A stretch of 14,248 nucleotides of DNA from Dunaliella salina. Taxonomy: Eukaryota > Chlorophyta > Chlorophyceae > Chlamydomonadales > Dunaliellaceae. Shown one piece after another: positions 1 to 14,248 of the stretch. The position numbers were made by a program, and so were the translations under genes. Position 1 is the first letter of the stretch. Each line of letters starts with the position of its first letter. The notes beneath the pieces are model-generated. The model was not told the DNA's origin. It saw only the letters and a list, made by a program, of their open reading frames with translations, and made no database searches. Where the stretch lies: NCBI GenBank assembly GCA_002284615.2, contig MU070122.1:117704-131951 (forward strand), given 5' to 3'.

Positions 1-370
1 GGCTGTCAAATACATGACAGGTAGAACAGAATGTGGGAAGAAAAAGAAAAGTCTACAGAGGCCAGAGGCCACACGCAGTAAGGAAAGGCTTCATGACAAG
101 AACAGGAAAAAATAGAGNAAAGTCTCNCNATGACAACGACGGAAAGGGAGACNTNTTGGCACACAAGCATGNCAGGCTGCATAAGACCTACTGCTACTTT
201 GAGCTCTTCTTTCTGGAAGNTCAATTGGGGGCCATGCNAAATGAAATGCAGNTNTTNTATCATCCTCACCTTCCGACGCCATTCATGCCTGGTCATGGCG
301 CTTCCATGAGGGTAGTAGGCATATCTAGGATGTCTCATCTCCCGCAAGCACCCTTTCCGCCTGCGCAACA
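1..370. other. Unresolved 5' margin with N bases
   Basis: No gene could be supported here. Several N bases (about 117-253) break every frame. Open frames exist on both strands but show no recognisable domain. A short repeat end lies at about 37-95 and is listed separately. The stretch may include the 5' part of the retrotransposon that is recognisable from about 484. Confidence 0.4.
37..95 (-). repeat. 3' end of a dispersed retro-repeat with T-rich tail
   Basis: Read on the minus strand, this stretch has CTTTCCTTACTGCGTG followed by GGCCTCTGGCC, TGTAGAC and a TTTTC-rich tail. The same order (TTTCCTTAATrCACGC, GGCCTCyGG, GCGTArAC) is found at 12711-12750, and the last part is found at 6019-6057. 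I infer a SINE-like or truncated LINE-like 3' end. No target duplication could be identified here. Confidence 0.45.
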
Positions 371-3603: not shown

Positions 3604-4287
3604 TTACTTTAGCAGGAGGTTTATGAGGCAGGCCAGGAGGATCAGGCCGAGGACTGCCCCCACAACGATGCCTGCCAAGGCTCCTTTGCTGACGCCAGAA
3701 GAGGCTCCCTCAGAGGGGCCACCCTCCTTGTCGACTTCTGCCTCACTTGGAACCAAAGTCGCTGGAGGTGCTGGAGGGGAGGGCACACGCAGCTCCGAGT
3801 CATTTGGAAATGGTGCGGAAGATGCATTGCCTGGCACATCTTGATCGTAAAAGGGGGGCACAGGAGCTTGCAAAGGAGCTGGCAGGGTTGGGGAGGGGGG
3901 CAAGGGCGCGGGCGCTGGAGTAGATGGAATAAATGGAGGTAGGATGAAAGTAAGGCTACCAGGGGGTGCTAAGGGTGATGGAGGAAGAGGGTGCGGAGTT
4001 GGAGGGTGTGTTGATGGTGTCTGAGGCATTGGATTTGGGAGGTCTGGTGCTGGCTGTGGATTGTCGGGGAAAGGCGGAGAGGATGGGTTGGATGGGCTGG
4101 GAAATGTTGGTGGACTCAACACAGGTGGACCTGGAGGGGGAGGCAAAGGTGGCAGAGCGTGTATTGGAACTGGTTCCAAAGGTGGTCCTGGGGAATTCAG
4201 GAGTGATTCTTCATACTCAGGGGGTGGAGGTGGTGGGCCTGCTGCCTGAGGTGAGTGTAGAGGTGGTGAGGGTGGCAAGGTTGGAGT
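3604..4287 (-). CDS. Terminal exon: proline-rich ectodomain plus C-terminal transmembrane helix
   Basis: The exon encodes about 227 residues ending at TAA (3604-3606). Roughly the first 150 residues are Pro/Ser-rich (PPPPPPEYEE, LPPLPPPPGPP and similar). A short linker rich in Glu, Ser and Asp follows (DQDVPGNASS, EAEVDKEGG). A Gly/Ala-rich membrane helix (starting GALAGIVVGAVLG) runs to a final Lys, giving a type I topology with almost no cytoplasmic tail. The small-xxx-small pattern could support helix packing. The 5' border is chosen at CCCACAG (ends 4288), preceded by a pyrimidine tract; a second in-frame AG lies at about 4247. An ATG at the left end is not needed because the frame is open upstream to 4350 and fits exon 5653-5795. 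Confidence 0.75.
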   Translation of the reverse strand, partial: TPTLPPSPPLHSPQAAGPPPPPPEYEESLLNSPGPPLEPVPIHALPPLPPPPGPPVLSPPTFPSPSNPSSPPFPDNPQPAPDLPNPMPQTPSTHPPTPHPLPPSPLAPPGSLTFILPPFIPSTPAPAPLPPSPTLPAPLQAPVPPFYDQDVPGNASSAPFPNDSELRVPSPPAPPATLVPSEAEVDKEGGPSEGASSGVSKGALAGIVVGAVLGLILLACLINLLLK

Positions 4288-4349
4288 CTGTGGGACGGGG
4301 AGCAGAGGCAGAGGGGGGTAAACATTGTTGGGACTTTGAGAGGTTATAC

Positions 4350-4445
4350 CTCAAAAACGCATGGGTGTCCAAGAACCAAATTTTGTCAATGCAAAGAGGT
4401 CATTTTCCGATACTTTTGGTCCATGGACATCCATGCGTTTTTGAG
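4350..4445. repeat. Long hairpin inside the outer element
   Basis: CTCAAAAACGCATGGGTG... at 4350-4370 pairs with 4425-4445 at 20 of 21 positions. Weaker pairing continues inward (AAGAACCAAA against TTTTGGTCCAT). This segment is not present in the other two copies of the family, so it may be a small foldback element or a local expansion. Confidence 0.7.
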
Positions 4446-4821
4446 AAACGGTCAGATCAAGATCTGGATGGATACCAGATGGGGCCTAAAGTTGCCTGTT
4501 CTTTACATGCTCTCAGCATTGCTCTCCCGTGCCTGGCACCACAAAGTTAGTTTATAATGATAGCTTGTTTCACGAGCTTTCTCTGACACTAGAAGACCAG
4601 GGGTGCCAGTTAAAGGGCACACGTGCCTGACCAGCCGTGGCGTGAGCCCTAGTTTTCACCACCAAATCTTCATTCTGGACCATTTTCTGGTTAAAATTGG
4701 ATGATTTTTTGGTGATTTGGAGTCTTTGTACTAGAAGAATACCATTGCAAAAAGAATGGGATGAAAAGACCCAGTGGTTGGTGAGATATAAAATTTCAGC
4801 CACTTCTCTTGGAGAAAATCC

Positions 4822-5466
4822 CAGAGGGGGGAACCCGGCTGATTTGCCAGACATGCTCTTTCCTACATTTTTTCTCACATCTGACCATGCCAACCATTCT
4901 TATTTATAGTAATATTGCTTTCATCAAAAATGACAAAATCGGAGGACCTCAGATCACTCTCCAGGCCTCAGTTCACCCAAAAATGGCCCACAGCTCCACC
5001 CTGGGCCATTTTTCACTCCCAAAATTTTGTATTTATAAAACCTATGTCCATTGCTAACATCCTGCATATTCAAAAATAGGAAAAAAGAAAGTAAAAAAAT
5101 GGCCTTTTAGGCACCCCCTGTGCTGGATTTTGTCCAAGGGAAATGGCTGAAATTCTGTATCTGACCAACCACTGGGTCTTTTCACTCCATTTATTTTGCA
5201 GTAATATTATTTAACTACAAGGACTCCAAAACACCTAAATTTACCCAATTTGGCGCAGTGGGTTGTCAGATCTGGGGATTTGGTGGTGAAAACTAGGGTT
5301 CACGTCACGGCTGATTAGGCACGGTGTCCCCGACTGGTAATATTGCAACGTTAGTACTACATGCGGCTTTACAGTGAACCCAAGCATCAATATTACGAGT
5401 TGGGGACAACATACGCAAGGAGCATGCAAAACATGCCTGATTTTGGGCCTTAGCTTCCCCCCTCTG
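4822..5466 (+). mobile_element. Nested introner-family copy, inverted relative to its host element
   Basis: The element is 645 bp. Its ends are CAGAGGGGGGAACC and GCTTCCCCCCTCTG, and a perfect 9-bp duplication AGAAAATCC flanks it at 4813-4821 and 5467-5475. It is inserted within the outer copy, which continues on both sides; sequences 4755-4820 and 5476-5600 are inverted counterparts of parts of this insert. The terminal GTAA has become GAA, so neither end offers the GT donor seen in the other two copies. Confidence 0.85.
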
Positions 5467-5652
5467 AGAAAATCCACAAAATCCAGCACAGGGGGTGCCA
5501 AAAAGGTCAATTTTGGACCTCCTCTTTTCTTATTTTTGAATATGCAGAATGTAAACATTTTATATGGTGGTTACTGAAACAAAGAAAATTGGGAGTGAAA
5601 AATGGCCGCAGCAGGCCCAGAAAAATTTGGCAGAGGCTGCAACAATGGTTAC

Positions 5653-5795
5653 CCCCCTCTGGAGCAGAGGTGCTAAAGGATTGTGCGGACCTGTAAGGTA
5701 TGGAGGTGCCGGACTTGGCAAAGATTCCAGAAGAGCAGGCGGGCTGGGTTGGTAGGGCAGAGGGATTTGATGAGCAATGGGATCTTGAGGACATG
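5653..5795 (-). CDS. Penultimate proline-rich exon
   Basis: Its acceptor is CCAATTTGCAG (minus strand), ending at 5796. The exon enters in phase 1 and reads CPQDPIAHQIPLPYQPSPP..., PSPAPPYLTGPHNPLAPLL, then QRG, which comes from the inserted element. It is 143 nt and leaves in phase 0, unlike the phase-1 array, because its right end is the transposon insertion point. It continues directly into the terminal exon if the element is removed. Confidence 0.6.
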
Positions 5796-6009
5796 CTGCA
5801 AATTGGAAACCAATGACACCCAGGCAGTCAACACGGGCGGCAGAGCTAAAGAAGGAGACATGTACTAATTCTGTGTGCATTGACTGACCGACCTTGTAAC
5901 AGCTGCACAAAGCCAGGGTCGGGTGGGATTCACAAACATTTGAATGAAAACATCTTTCTTCAGACCAAGCGACGCCCACTGCAATGACAGCCAGTGCGTC
6001 ATGCATCAA

Positions 6010-6066
6010 TTCCAAATGGGCCTCTGGCCTGCGTAGACTTTTCTTTTTCTTTTTCTTTTCCAAATG
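6010..6066 (+). mobile_element. 5'-truncated retro-repeat end with TSD
   Basis: TTCCAAATG occurs at 6010-6018 and again at 6058-6066. Between them lie 39 bp: GGCCTCTGGCCTGCGTAGAC followed by a TTTTC/TTTTTC repeat tail. A target duplication, 5' truncation and a 3' simple tail are the marks of LINE-driven insertion. The body matches the ends at 37-95 and 12721-12750. Confidence 0.7.
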
Positions 6067-6279
6067 ACCCTGGGGGCATACAACTGTTGCCGCTGATGTG
6101 CTGCTGCCCAAGGGGTAAAATGGGATTGGCTCAATGGAGGGATCAGTGAGGGGGAGGAAAGAAAGGGCGAGCAGCAAAAGAAGATCAGCACATAAGAAAA
6201 CTTTGTTTCAAAGTAAAAAAGAAAATAAGCAAGGGAGATGCAGCAGAAAGAAAGAAAGATATGAGCTCGCCATTCAAAA

Positions 6280-6297
6280 GCGTGCATTAAGGAAAGG
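6280..6297 (-). repeat. Dispersed CTTTCCTTAATGCACGC motif
   Basis: Eighteen bases on the minus strand match 13695-13715 (minus) and, with two changes, 12712-12729 (plus). It is probably a fragment of the same SINE-like family. No borders were identified. Confidence 0.35.
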
Positions 6298-6468
6298 GCC
6301 TCTCCATGGACCCCACCAAAAGGGTGACCACTTTTCTAGCAATCCCCAAACGCAAGAGTTCAAACCGTAGACTTCCTCCTTGGTTGATGCGCCCTCACAC
6401 CGATCGGGGTGGCTGTAACAAGGCAACCGATGCAACGCTCACACTATCTTAGTACAGCAAAAGCTCAC

Positions 6469-7617: not shown

Positions 7618-7715
7618 CTGTGTACAAAACAGCTGCACAAGTCAATGAGGACAACTAACATGTAAACAAAAAAACTCTGAAATTCGGCCAAAAGGAAAAG
7701 CTGAACACGACTCAC

Positions 7716-7814
7716 GAGGAGAAGGAGGTGCAGGTGGAGAAGACAGGCTAGGATGCGCAAGGATAGGTGGTGGGTATGGAGGAGGGGCAGGGGGAAAAGG
7801 CTGGGGAGAACTTG
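7716..7814 (-). CDS. Array exon, 33 aa
   Basis: Acceptor TTACACACAG and donor TCCTC|GTGAGT on the minus strand border a 99-nt, phase 1-1 exon. It reads SSPQPFPPAPPPYPPPILAH and ends SSPPAPPSP. It is more diverged than the units to its right. Confidence 0.6.
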
Positions 7815-7912
7815 CTGTGTGTAAAAGAATTTCAACACAACTCAGTGAGTATTGATGAGCTGTAGAAAAGCATTTGTTGCTCAGCTGTGAGGACAAGCTG
7901 AGCAAAACTCAC

Positions 7913-8014
7913 AAGGAGGAGGTGGCGGTGCAGGTGATGGAGGTGGATTGGGAGGCATCGGGCTAGGTGGCGGATGTGGCAGAGGTGGTGGGGGCAAAGG
8001 AGGGGGAGGNCTTG
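7913..8014 (-). CDS. Array exon, 34 aa
   Basis: Acceptor GCACAG and donor CCTT|GTGAGT border this 102-nt, phase 1-1 exon; one N lies at 8010. The proline-rich core (PPPPLPHPPPSPMPPNPPPS-type) is clear. Confidence 0.6.
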
Positions 8015-8118
8015 CTGTGCAGAAAAAGAGATTGCAACACATTTCAGTGTGGATTGACAAAGCACGGAAGAGCTGTAAATTATTCAGCTGTTAGGAANAG
8101 CTCAGGAGCACAACTCAC

Positions 8119-8220
8119 GAGGAGGAGGAGGTGGTGCAGGTGATGGAGGTGGATTGGGAGGCATAGGGCTAGGTGGCGGATATGGGGGAGGGGTTGGGGG
8201 CAAAGGAGGGGAAGGGCTCA
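8119..8220 (-). CDS. Array exon, 34 aa
   Basis: Acceptor TTCTGCACAG and donor CCTCCTC|GTGAGT border a 102-nt, phase 1-1 exon. It encodes SPSPPLPPTPPPYPPPSPMP and PPNPPPSPAPPPPP-type residues. The downstream intron is about 104 nt and closely matches its neighbours. Confidence 0.65.
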
Positions 8221-8324
8221 CTGTGCAGAAAAAGATATAGCAGCACATTTTAGTGTGAATTGACAAAGCGTGGGGGAGCTGTCGATTATTCAGCTGTTAG
8301 GAAATGCTCAGGAGCACAACTCAC

Positions 8325-8423
8325 GCGGAGGAGGATGTGCAGGTGACAGAGGTGGATTGGGAGGCATCGGGCTAGGTGGTGGGTGTGGGGGAGGTGGTGG
8401 GGGCAAAAGCGGGGGAGGGCTCG
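8325..8423 (-). CDS. Array exon, 33 aa
   Basis: Acceptor CTGCCCAG and donor CCTCCGC|GTGAGT border a 99-nt, phase 1-1 exon. Residues are SPPPLLPPPPPPHPPPSPMP and PPLSPAHPPP. Confidence 0.65.
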
Positions 8424-8521
8424 CTGGGCAGGAAAAAAGATTGCAACACATTTTAGTATGGACATTCGAAATGTGGAAGAGCTGTAAATTGTTAAGCTGT
8501 AAGCTCAGGTGCACAACTCAC

Positions 8522-8623
8522 GAGGAGGAGGAGGTGGTGCAGGTGATGGAGGTGGATTGGGAGGCATCGGGCTAGGTGGTGGCTGTGGGGGAGGTGGTGG
8601 GGGCAAAGGAGGGGGAGGGCTCG
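8522..8623 (-). CDS. Array exon, 34 aa
   Basis: Acceptor TTTCTGCACAG after a T-run and donor CCTCCTC|GTGAGT border a 102-nt, phase 1-1 exon encoding PLPPPPPPQPPPSPMPPNPP followed by PSPAPPPP. It is a good reference unit for the array. Confidence 0.65.
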
Positions 8624-8727
8624 CTGTGCAGAAAAAAAGATTGCAGCACATTTTAGTGTGGATTGACGAAGCGCGGAAGAGCTGTAAATTCTTTAGCTAT
8701 TTAAAAAAGCTCAGGAGCGCAACTCAC

Positions 8728-8808
8728 GAGCAGGAAGTGGTGCAGGTGATGGAGGTGGATTGGGAGGCATCTGGCTAGGTGGTGGGGGCAAAGGAGGGGG
8801 AGGGCACG
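8728..8808 (-). CDS. Array exon, 27 aa (short)
   Basis: Acceptor TTTGCACAG and donor CTGCTC|GTGAGT border an 81-nt, phase 1-1 exon. It lacks about seven codons in the middle of the standard unit, still in frame. The intron on its 5' side holds the 3.57-kb insertion. Confidence 0.6.
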
Positions 8809-8869
8809 CTGTGCAAATAAAGAGATTCGTCGGAAAATTTTGGTTTCTCTAATTCCACTTCTGATTGGA

Positions 8870-10222: not shown

Positions 10223-10893
10223 GTGTGTTTCCAGAGGGGGTAAGCTGGCCAATTTGCCAGACATGCTCTTTCTCCTAATTCTCTCTCAAATTTGACCATA
10301 CCAACCATTATTGTTTATATAAATATTATAATTGACAAAAAATGGAAAAATTCGGAGGACCCCAGATCATTCTCCTGGCCTCAGATCACCCCAAATTGGC
10401 CTACAACTCCACCCTGGGGTCATTTTTCACTTTCAAAATTTTATATTTATAACCCCCATATACACTGGTAACATCCTGCATATTCAAAAATATATAAGGA
10501 GGGCGTCATTTTTTGGCCTTTTTAGCACCCCTTGCACTGGGTTTTCTTCAACGGAAATGGCTGAAATTCTGTATCTGACCAACCACTGGGTCTTTTCACT
10601 CCATTCTTTTTCTTGCAATGATATTTATTTGGTACAAGGACTCTGAATCACCAAAAATCACCTAATTTGACGCAGTGGGTGGTGCAGTGGGTGGTGGAGA
10701 TTGGCTGGTGAAAACTAGGGTTCACGCCACGGCCGATTGGGCCCGTCTCCCGTGACTGGTAATCTTGAGAAAGTAATGCTACAGAAACCATAGGAAACCG
10801 AGCTTGAAAATGACCGGTCACGGGAGATGTACGCAAGGAGCATGCAAAAAACACCTGATCTTGGGCTTCAGCTTACCCCCCCTGGTGTGTTTC
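10223..10893. repeat. 9-bp target-site duplication GTGTGTTTC
   Basis: GTGTGTTTC lies at 10223-10231 and 10885-10893, immediately outside the third introner-family copy. Confidence 0.85.
10232..10884 (+). mobile_element. Third introner-family copy, 653 bp
   Basis: Ends are CAGAGGGGGTAAGCTG and CAGCTTACCCCCCCTG, with a perfect 9-bp duplication. It aligns along its length with 4822-5466, including the GATTTGCCAGACATGCTCTT, ACCAACCACTGGGTCTTTTC, GTGAAAACTAGGGTTCACG and ACGCAAGGAGCATGCAAAA blocks. Both ends carry GGGGGTAAGC pointing inward, so a consensus 5' splice site is available in either orientation. It sits next to the hAT-like element and inside the 3.57-kb insertion. Confidence 0.85.
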
Positions 10894-12320: not shown

Positions 12321-12510
12321 AATCCTGCGAGGCAAAAACTCCACACTTTTTGGCATAGCATGCCTGGGCTGATTCAGAGAAGTAAAACTCTCTGGCGTTG
12401 CAACACATTTCAGTGTGGATTGACAAAGCGTGGAAGAGCTGTAATTTATTCAGCTGTTAGCTCAGGAGCACAACTCAGGAGGAGGAGGAGGTGGTGCAGG
12501 TGATGGAGCT

Positions 12511-12584
12511 GGATTGGGATTTGAGCCAAACGGTGTGGCTCATGCATGGATTGGGATTCAAGCCAAACGGTTTGGCTCATGCAA
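12511..12584. repeat. 37-bp direct repeat holding hairpins
   Basis: Two copies (12511-12547 and 12548-12584) start GGATTGGGATT. Each contains a foldback: GAGCCA...TGGCTC in the first and AGCCAAACGGTTTGGCT, a perfect palindrome around one G, in the second. A further hairpin GCAACT/AGTTGC follows. Confidence 0.8.
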
Positions 12585-12757
12585 CTGACCAGTTGCACCC
12601 CTGGAAACACTCAGGAAGGCAACCCTAGAGGTCCCCGGTTCGTACCCCTGGGTGAGGGTTGGCACCTAGAACTTGGAGAAATCCGGGTAGTCGGAGGGTT
12701 CCCTAACGGATTCTTTCCTTAATACACGCGGCCTCCGGGCAAGCGTAAACATTGGGT
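12521..12757 (+). mobile_element. SINE-like insertion in an array exon
   Basis: The inserted sequence carries GGTTCGTACCC (12637-12647), close to the polymerase III B-box consensus GGTTCGANNCC. It ends with TTTCCTTAATACACGCGGCC and GGGCAAGCGTAAAC, an end shared with other copies in the window. ATTGGG/TTGGG of the exon appears on both sides as a short duplication. A convincing A box was not found, so tRNA origin is tentative. Confidence 0.55.
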
Positions 12758-12924
12758 TGGGAGGCATTGGGCTAGGTAGTGGGTGTGGGGGAGGTGGTAA
12801 GGGCAAAGGAGGGGGAGGGCTCGCTGTGCAGGAAAAGATTGCAGCACATTCTAACGTGGATTGATGAAGTATGGGAGAGATGTAAGCTATTCAAAGTTAG
12901 GAAAAGCCCAGGAGCACAACTCAC

Positions 12925-13008
12925 GAGGAGGAGGAGGCGGTGCAGGTGNTGGAGGTGGATTAGGAGGCATCGGGCTAGGTGGTGGGGGCAAAGGAGGGGG
13001 AGGGCTCG
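12925..13008 (-). CDS. Array exon, 28 aa
   Basis: Acceptor TTCTGCACAG and donor CCTCCTC|GTGAGT border an 84-nt, phase 1-1 exon with one N at 12949. Like the unit at 8728 it lacks the middle repeat block of the 102-nt exons. Confidence 0.6.
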
Positions 13009-13133
13009 CTGTGCAGAAAAATAGATTGCAACACACATGTGTGATAAAAAAACACATTTTAGTGTGGATGGAAAAAATGTGGTAGAGCTGTTAATTATTC
13101 AGCTGTTGGGGAAATTTCAGGAGCACAACTCAC

Positions 13134-13193
13134 GAGGAGGAGGAGGTGGACGTTTTGGGCATATGAAATTTTGTCGGAGCAATGTCATGATTG
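13134..13193 (-). CDS. Array exon, 20 aa, diverged 5' half
   Basis: Donor CCTCCTC|GTGAGT is standard. The start is set at TTTGTTTAG, which gives phase 1 and a 60-nt exon reading IMTLLRQNFICPKRPPPPP. Only its 3' third matches the array. It may mark the 5' edge of the duplicated block. Confidence 0.4.
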
Positions 13194-14083: not shown

Positions 14084-14180
14084 CTGTAGAGCATGCGTGG
14101 AACACAGGTATGTCTTGAACATCTTAATTGAAGTTTTCAGAAAATGCAGAATCAATTTTTAGGCATGCATGCAGAAACAT

Positions 14181-14248
<68 letters not shown>
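14181..14248. repeat. (TG)n microsatellite at window end
   Basis: At least 33 uninterrupted TG units run to the last base. The contig may end here because of the repeat. Confidence 0.95.

Follow-up and report, generated by a model that had tools for sequence, protein, structure and literature searches.

The locus

The window analysed here is a stretch of 14,248 nucleotides of Dunaliella salina (assembly GCA_002284615.2, contig MU070122.1, positions 117,704 to 131,951 of the forward strand). It contains, on the minus strand, a predicted proline-rich gene which is interrupted by a transposable element with terminal inverted repeats (TIRs); a second, related element is nested in the first one. 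The coordinates of the features are listed in Table 1. The borders of the most distant exon of the gene were set by eye, after matching to the annotated second copy of the gene (see below).

Table 1. Features in the window; position 1 is its first base, exons and splice borders are predictions, and a slash marks a splice border
Feature	Positions	Strand	Details
Next exon of the gene	270..360	-	RRKGCLREMRHPRYAYYPHGSAMTRHEWRRK; matched to annotated second copy, borders by eye
Exon after predicted intron	3608..4287	-	Proline-rich stretch and C-terminal hydrophobic segment, then predicted donor AAA/GTAAGC
Predicted intron	4288..5652	-	Donor GGGGG/GTAACC at 5652, acceptor CCCACAG/ ending at 4288; 1,365 nt, phase 0; from sequence
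Target-site duplication of outer element, left copy	4300..4308	.	GAGCAGAGG, 9 bp, perfect
Outer TIR transposon	4309..5661	- (host-gene strand)	1,353 bp with nested element
TIR of outer element, left	4309..4330	+	CAGAGGGGGGTAAACATTGTTG
Duplication of nested element, left copy	4813..4821	.	AGAAAATCC, 9 bp, perfect
Nested second TIR element	4822..5466	.	645 bp; related high-copy family; ends CAGAGGGGGGAA / TTCCCCCCTCTG
Duplication of nested element, right copy	5467..5475	.	AGAAAATCC, 9 bp, perfect
TIR of outer element, right	5640..5661	-	CAACAATGGTTACCCCCCTCTG (CAGAGGGGGGTAACCATTGTTG in gene orientation); carries predicted donor
Open frame before predicted intron	5653..6020	-	Cys-containing stretch, then PYQPSPPALLESLPSPAPPYLTGPHNPLAPLL; open to about 6207
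Target-site duplication of outer element, right copy	5662..5670	.	GAGCAGAGG, 9 bp, perfect
Third related TIR element	10232..10884	.	653 bp; perfect 9-bp duplication GTGTGTTTC; outside any evident exon

The window is flanked by long runs of N, and at its end (14178–14248) a TG microsatellite reaches into an assembly gap. On the minus strand, tandem exon-intron units were recognized by eye at 7700–8850 and 12400–13140; each has a proline-rich exon, about 100 nt long, which starts after TCTGCACAG/CGAGCCC and ends with CTC/GTGAGTTG. They look as if an exon together with its intron had been duplicated repeatedly. These units were rejected as evidence on donor sequences, since the search pattern had itself required GTGAGT or GTAAGT.

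The insertion and the reading frame at its site

An earlier description of the locus, made from the letters alone and termed here the sequence-only reading, had reported a perfect 9-bp duplication and inverted ends. Both were confirmed: the same 9 bp stand on either side of the outer element, and the two ends are complementary at 21 of 22 positions, with weaker internal repeats besides this 22-nt TIR. After subtraction of the nested element and of one copy of its duplication, the outer element is 699 bp long. No Pfam domain was found in the six internal ORFs of the outer element which were scanned, and Rfam yielded nothing above gathering scores across the window. Judged by these features, the outer element is a TIR transposon without recognisable transposase.

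The nested element, which had been overlooked in the sequence-only reading, has ends of the CAGAGGGGGG type. Since the genome also has outer elements that lack the inner one at other places (e.g., C49:591355-592072), the outer element was inserted first and the inner one second. The third element of the window showed 77% identity to the nested element; its end, GGGGTAAGC, is a closer donor match than that of the outer element.

Removal of positions 4309-5670, i.e., the element plus one copy of the duplication, leaves an open frame ...NPLAPLLPVPQTPTLPP..., and the frame spanning the empty site comprises 413 amino acids, with the flank taken up to 6400. The claim that such an excision would restore a continuous proline-rich frame (APLL/PVPQ) was thus borne out. 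Among 150 dinucleotide shuffles, which were successive steps of one chain, none reached 413 amino acids (maximum 373) and one reached 350. Since the observed frame lies beyond all shuffles, the insertion site is best read as the middle of a predicted coding exon. Location of a TIR transposon within a proline-rich reading frame, as originally proposed, is therefore well supported by the duplications, the ends and the open frame at the empty site.

For the upstream, Cys-containing part of the frame no relatives were detected in a protein database search, and its Pfam match was only sub-threshold. Likewise, no annotated protein joining both exons was found in protein searches over length ranges of 192-612, 422-1,342 and 592-1,885 amino acids, with different protein parts as query in each; in one of them the best 7,986 candidates were scored. 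All of these searches yielded the product of the second gene copy and nothing else. A genome search for an empty site or for a paralog of the upstream frame yielded the copy in the window and no other.

The element family in the genome

The genome sequence which was searched comprised 284.9 Mb in 1,403 contigs; the draft genome of D. salina was described as having 343.7 Mb and 49.1% G+C (PMC5658486). With at most two mismatches, the 22-nt end had 303 genomic matches (155 + 148), a number which counts ends and not elements, an intact element having two; the reversed control pattern had none. Forty-seven elements were defined by their ends alone (at most 3 mismatches of 15, spacing 550–800 bp), the longer copy of the window being admitted by a special rule, and their median length was 698 bp. 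A flanking 9-bp duplication with at most two mismatches was present in 36 of the 47 and was perfect in 18; in a control, mismatched pairings gave such a duplication in 5 of 2,162 cases.

Of the 94 ends sampled, two for each element, 77 have a GT dinucleotide at positions 10–11, most commonly in the form GTAACC (60 ends). The donor motif is thus a general property of the end repeat and no adaptation at the site in the window. Multiple copies, inverted ends, a constant length of the duplication and the lack of a transposase domain in the six ORFs are the properties of a non-autonomous, MITE-like TIR DNA transposon, and the family appears to be a large, ordinary and non-specialised one. The 9-bp target-site duplication is shared with Mutator-like elements; according to PMC9569675, these have 9-bp duplications and, in maize, TIRs of about 200 bp, whereas the TIR of the D. 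salina element has about 22 nt.

Predicted splicing

The splice strings given in the sequence-only reading were found as written, and both borders are in phase 0: the predicted junction leads from CAGAGGGGG/GTAACC to CCCACAG/ACT. In the 32 nt preceding the AG of the predicted acceptor, 27 positions are pyrimidines; the previous AG is 46 nt upstream of it. The first AG after the duplication follows 12 bases on and is in frame.

The following course of events could be envisaged. The 1,353-bp transposon, holding the 645-bp second one, interrupts the predicted proline-rich exon, and its end repeat CAGAGGGGG/GTAACC would serve as the donor. The C-rich repeat at the other end, together with the duplicated CCTCTGCTC and the host sequence CCCGTCCCA, would form a pyrimidine tract, and an AG of the host gene, in CCCACAG/ACT, would act as the acceptor. 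The spliceosome would then remove an intron of 1,365 nt which starts inside the end of the element and stops at the host AG, with loss of PVPQ and gain of QRG. In the predicted spliced product QRG would replace PVPQ, which would shorten the compared stretch from 350 to 349 residues. Retention of the element would lead to 33 extra residues after APLL, followed by a stop, and the C-terminal hydrophobic segment would be lost.

Splicing at 5652/4288 is plausible because the end repeat has a built-in GT. This GT, together with a proline-rich and hence pyrimidine-rich exon and an in-frame AG 12 bases on, makes splicing the leading hypothesis. Against it stands the predicted donor GTAACC, which has C at position +5; all four comparison donors of the annotated second copy, which were deduced from where the matches of its protein end, have G there. 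The sequence-only reading is thus supported in part: the donor in the end repeat, the 27 pyrimidines in 32 positions and the preserved frame render its claim that the element is now an intron plausible from the sequence, but the donor is weak at +5. Similarly, the statement that the element was spliceable on arrival is a fair one as far as the end repeat is concerned, considering the GT in 77 of 94 ends. We hold with about even confidence that the transposon in the predicted exon is removed as a predicted intron, and that it represents a single insertion of an ordinary family rather than a member of an intron-generating one. The nested insertion in a predicted exon is real, and it is likely tolerated through splicing.

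Transposons of the Ds/dSpm type in maize have been found to be spliced from exons singly, with proof from transcripts. The D. salina insertion resembles these cases in that a cut-and-paste element lies in an exon, with splice signals near its ends and small changes of the protein; the difference is that splicing in D. salina is predicted from sequence, whereas the maize cases have the transcript proof.

The second gene copy and the state of the frame

The downstream part of the gene occurs a second time on the same scaffold (C687:152941-158135, locus L073; exon match C687:156617-157186). In this second copy the matched part of the exon is 97% identical to that in the window and the adjoining intron about 93%. 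This copy is annotated as DUNSADRAFT_15580, a hypothetical protein with its start inside the downstream exon, whose first 141 residues match the second copy at 100%. It was considered as a clean empty site and rejected, since positions 4174-6306 of the window are missing there as one block (a deletion of about 2.1 kb); thus, the element and the upstream frame are both absent from it. The second copy may be a paralog or another haplotype that was put on the same scaffold. The first 300 bases of the window are identical in both gene copies apart from 11 single Ns (118–257), which suggests a merging of reads from two copies or haplotypes in this stretch.

The main rival to splicing is a disruption of this gene copy by the insertion. 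With the element retained in the RNA, the copy would encode a shortened protein or be a pseudogene in decay, and its open frame would be a remnant; we consider this possible, although less probable than splicing. The weak +5 position of the donor, the stop which retention would bring after 33 residues and the failure of the protein searches to yield an exon-joining protein point in this direction. So does the comparison of the exon between the two gene copies, which gave a dN of 0.032 and a dS of 0.029; with values so similar, amino-acid constraint is not visible. In addition, the next donor reads AAA/GTAAGC in the window and AAG/GTAAGT in the second copy. On the other hand, some 350 codons spanning the site still form one intact frame. 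Compared with the second copy, the downstream exon shows 19 differences in 564 sites and no indel, whereas the adjoining intron has 218 differences in 3,206 sites and 21 gap openings. The divergence of the intron is uneven (1.3% to 10% in bins of 300 nt), so that the exon lies within the range of the intron bin by bin.

The time available for decay was estimated from terminal branches, which gave, with partial sampling, ages of at most 7.1% for the outer element (against 37 copies) and at most 4.6% for the nested one (against 8 copies). In a simulation of neutral decay the probability of an intact frame was 0.40 at 1%, 0.16 at 2%, 0.04 at 3.5% and 0.014 at 5%. Neutral survival of the frame would thus be unlikely at the upper-bound ages; the argument is weak at an age of 1–2%, and the indel rate of the simulation was taken from one intron. 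The intact frame and the indel-free exon favour, but do not prove, a living frame.

Other insertion sites of the family

A sample of 79 loci (67 + 12) was scanned, which yielded 49 resolved sites after repeats of one site had been merged, with flanks of 0.6–1.5 kb; six of the sites belong to the family of the nested element. Dropped were 16 of the 67 and 7 of the 12 loci, in which no end pair had a duplication at two or fewer mismatches. From the 370 flanking ORFs, 188 were kept (the four longest per site) and 150 were run against Pfam. Five families were obtained, with one ORF each (RVT_1, tRNA-synt_2d, Ashwin, MnmE_helical and Mito_carr; the assignment of ORFs to families was made by eye), and for most of the 49 sites it could not be decided whether they lie within a gene.

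At three loci neighbouring exons were assigned by eye. At L018 the GTGAGT donor of a mitochondrial-carrier-like exon starts about 40 nt ahead of the element, and at L064 a PheRS-like exon is situated at a distance of about 0.5 kb; at least some relatives thus appear to be situated inside ordinary introns. At L031, on the minus strand, the element is followed by several degenerate tandem repeats, each made up of an acceptor and the beginning of an ABC-transporter-like exon (VMFLPQKPYMALGS); one of these repeats carries an inserted family member.

The sites L018 and L064 lend some weight to the view that the element in the window, too, is a passenger in a pre-existing intron and created none. 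We regard this as improbable, since proline-rich coding sequence is present on both sides of the duplication in one continuous frame, and the nearby upstream GTs are, by eye, poor donors.

In the sampled part of the family a host frame is interrupted at one of 49 resolved sites, that of the window, going by the length of the frame and by visual inspection. The window also has the longest spanning frame of all 49 sites (350 amino acids, truncated where the locus ends), followed by 273, 256 and 227 amino acids; by eye, the first two of these look like remnants of retrotransposons, and the third is a low-complexity repeat. The spanning frame had a median of 82 amino acids at 44 sites; at 918 control positions, taken from the same flanks, the median was 107. 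Frames of at least 100 amino acids were present at 18 of the 44 sites versus 59% of the control positions. Thus, an enrichment of open frames was seen neither in these 44 sites relative to the controls nor with 5 more sites, a comparison of plain values with no significance test behind it.

Comparison with introners

The origin of new introns is an old question, to which introners are a leading current answer. The search for introners in PMC9860276 demanded similarity that starts no more than 5 nt (exonic) or 10 nt (intronic) from each border, and at least four introns per family; part of the families have TIRs and duplications of 3–9 bp, and enrichment in genes was reported for 161 of 175 genomes. 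In one class, derived from non-autonomous DNA transposons, the element brings the 5' splice site and co-opts a 3' one (same source). Among the papers searched, none mentioned D. salina together with introners.

The likeness of the D. salina insertion to these elements, as far as they are portrayed there (PMC9860276), consists in the TIRs, the target-site duplication, a donor borne by the element, an acceptor on the host side and a changed number of codons, which is a prediction here. The signs of DNA transposition, TIRs and a 9-bp duplication, are therefore present. The difference is that introners form families, whereas in D. salina there is one predicted intron, and sampled relatives are without enrichment of open frames. 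Instead of four or more introns sharing sequence up to their borders, one of 49 sites in the sample of the family was found, and the distance from the ends of the element to the predicted borders is 9 nt on the donor side (exonic) and 21 nt on the acceptor side (intronic). The predicted intron, with 1.35 kb, owes its length to the nested insertion.

That a true introner family is repeatedly making introns in D. salina genes is, in our opinion, very improbable: the GT at positions 10–11 in 77 of 94 ends, facing a pyrimidine-rich far end, and the TIRs and 3–9 bp duplications known in introners (PMC9860276) would agree with it, but the single interrupted frame among 49 resolved sites, the shorter spanning frames and the distance of the borders from the limits given above speak against it. 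The analogy to introners that had been drawn originally is not supported by the sampled sites and the borders, nor is an introner reading at the level of the family. It may be said that the insertion works like an introner on paper and that, by the sequence comparisons made here, membership in such a family fails.

Significance

The leftover CAGAGGGGG comprises exactly three codons, with no stop in any frame, and the duplication of 9 bp likewise corresponds to three codons. Insertion into an exon in either orientation would bring in CAGAGGGGG/GTAACC at one border and a C-rich tract at the opposite one. With a leftover and a duplication of three codons each, any host AG at a multiple of three downstream would give a frame-preserving intron. 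It is an unlikely, though conceivable, extension of these observations that the end repeat is a ready-made splice cassette, and that the birth of an intron from a non-specialised transposon was caught here, as the stage preceding an introner family, with a second transposon entering the new intron later. An ordinary, non-specialised transposon family whose end repeat by itself can be read as spliceable would illustrate the raw material available for the selection of introners.
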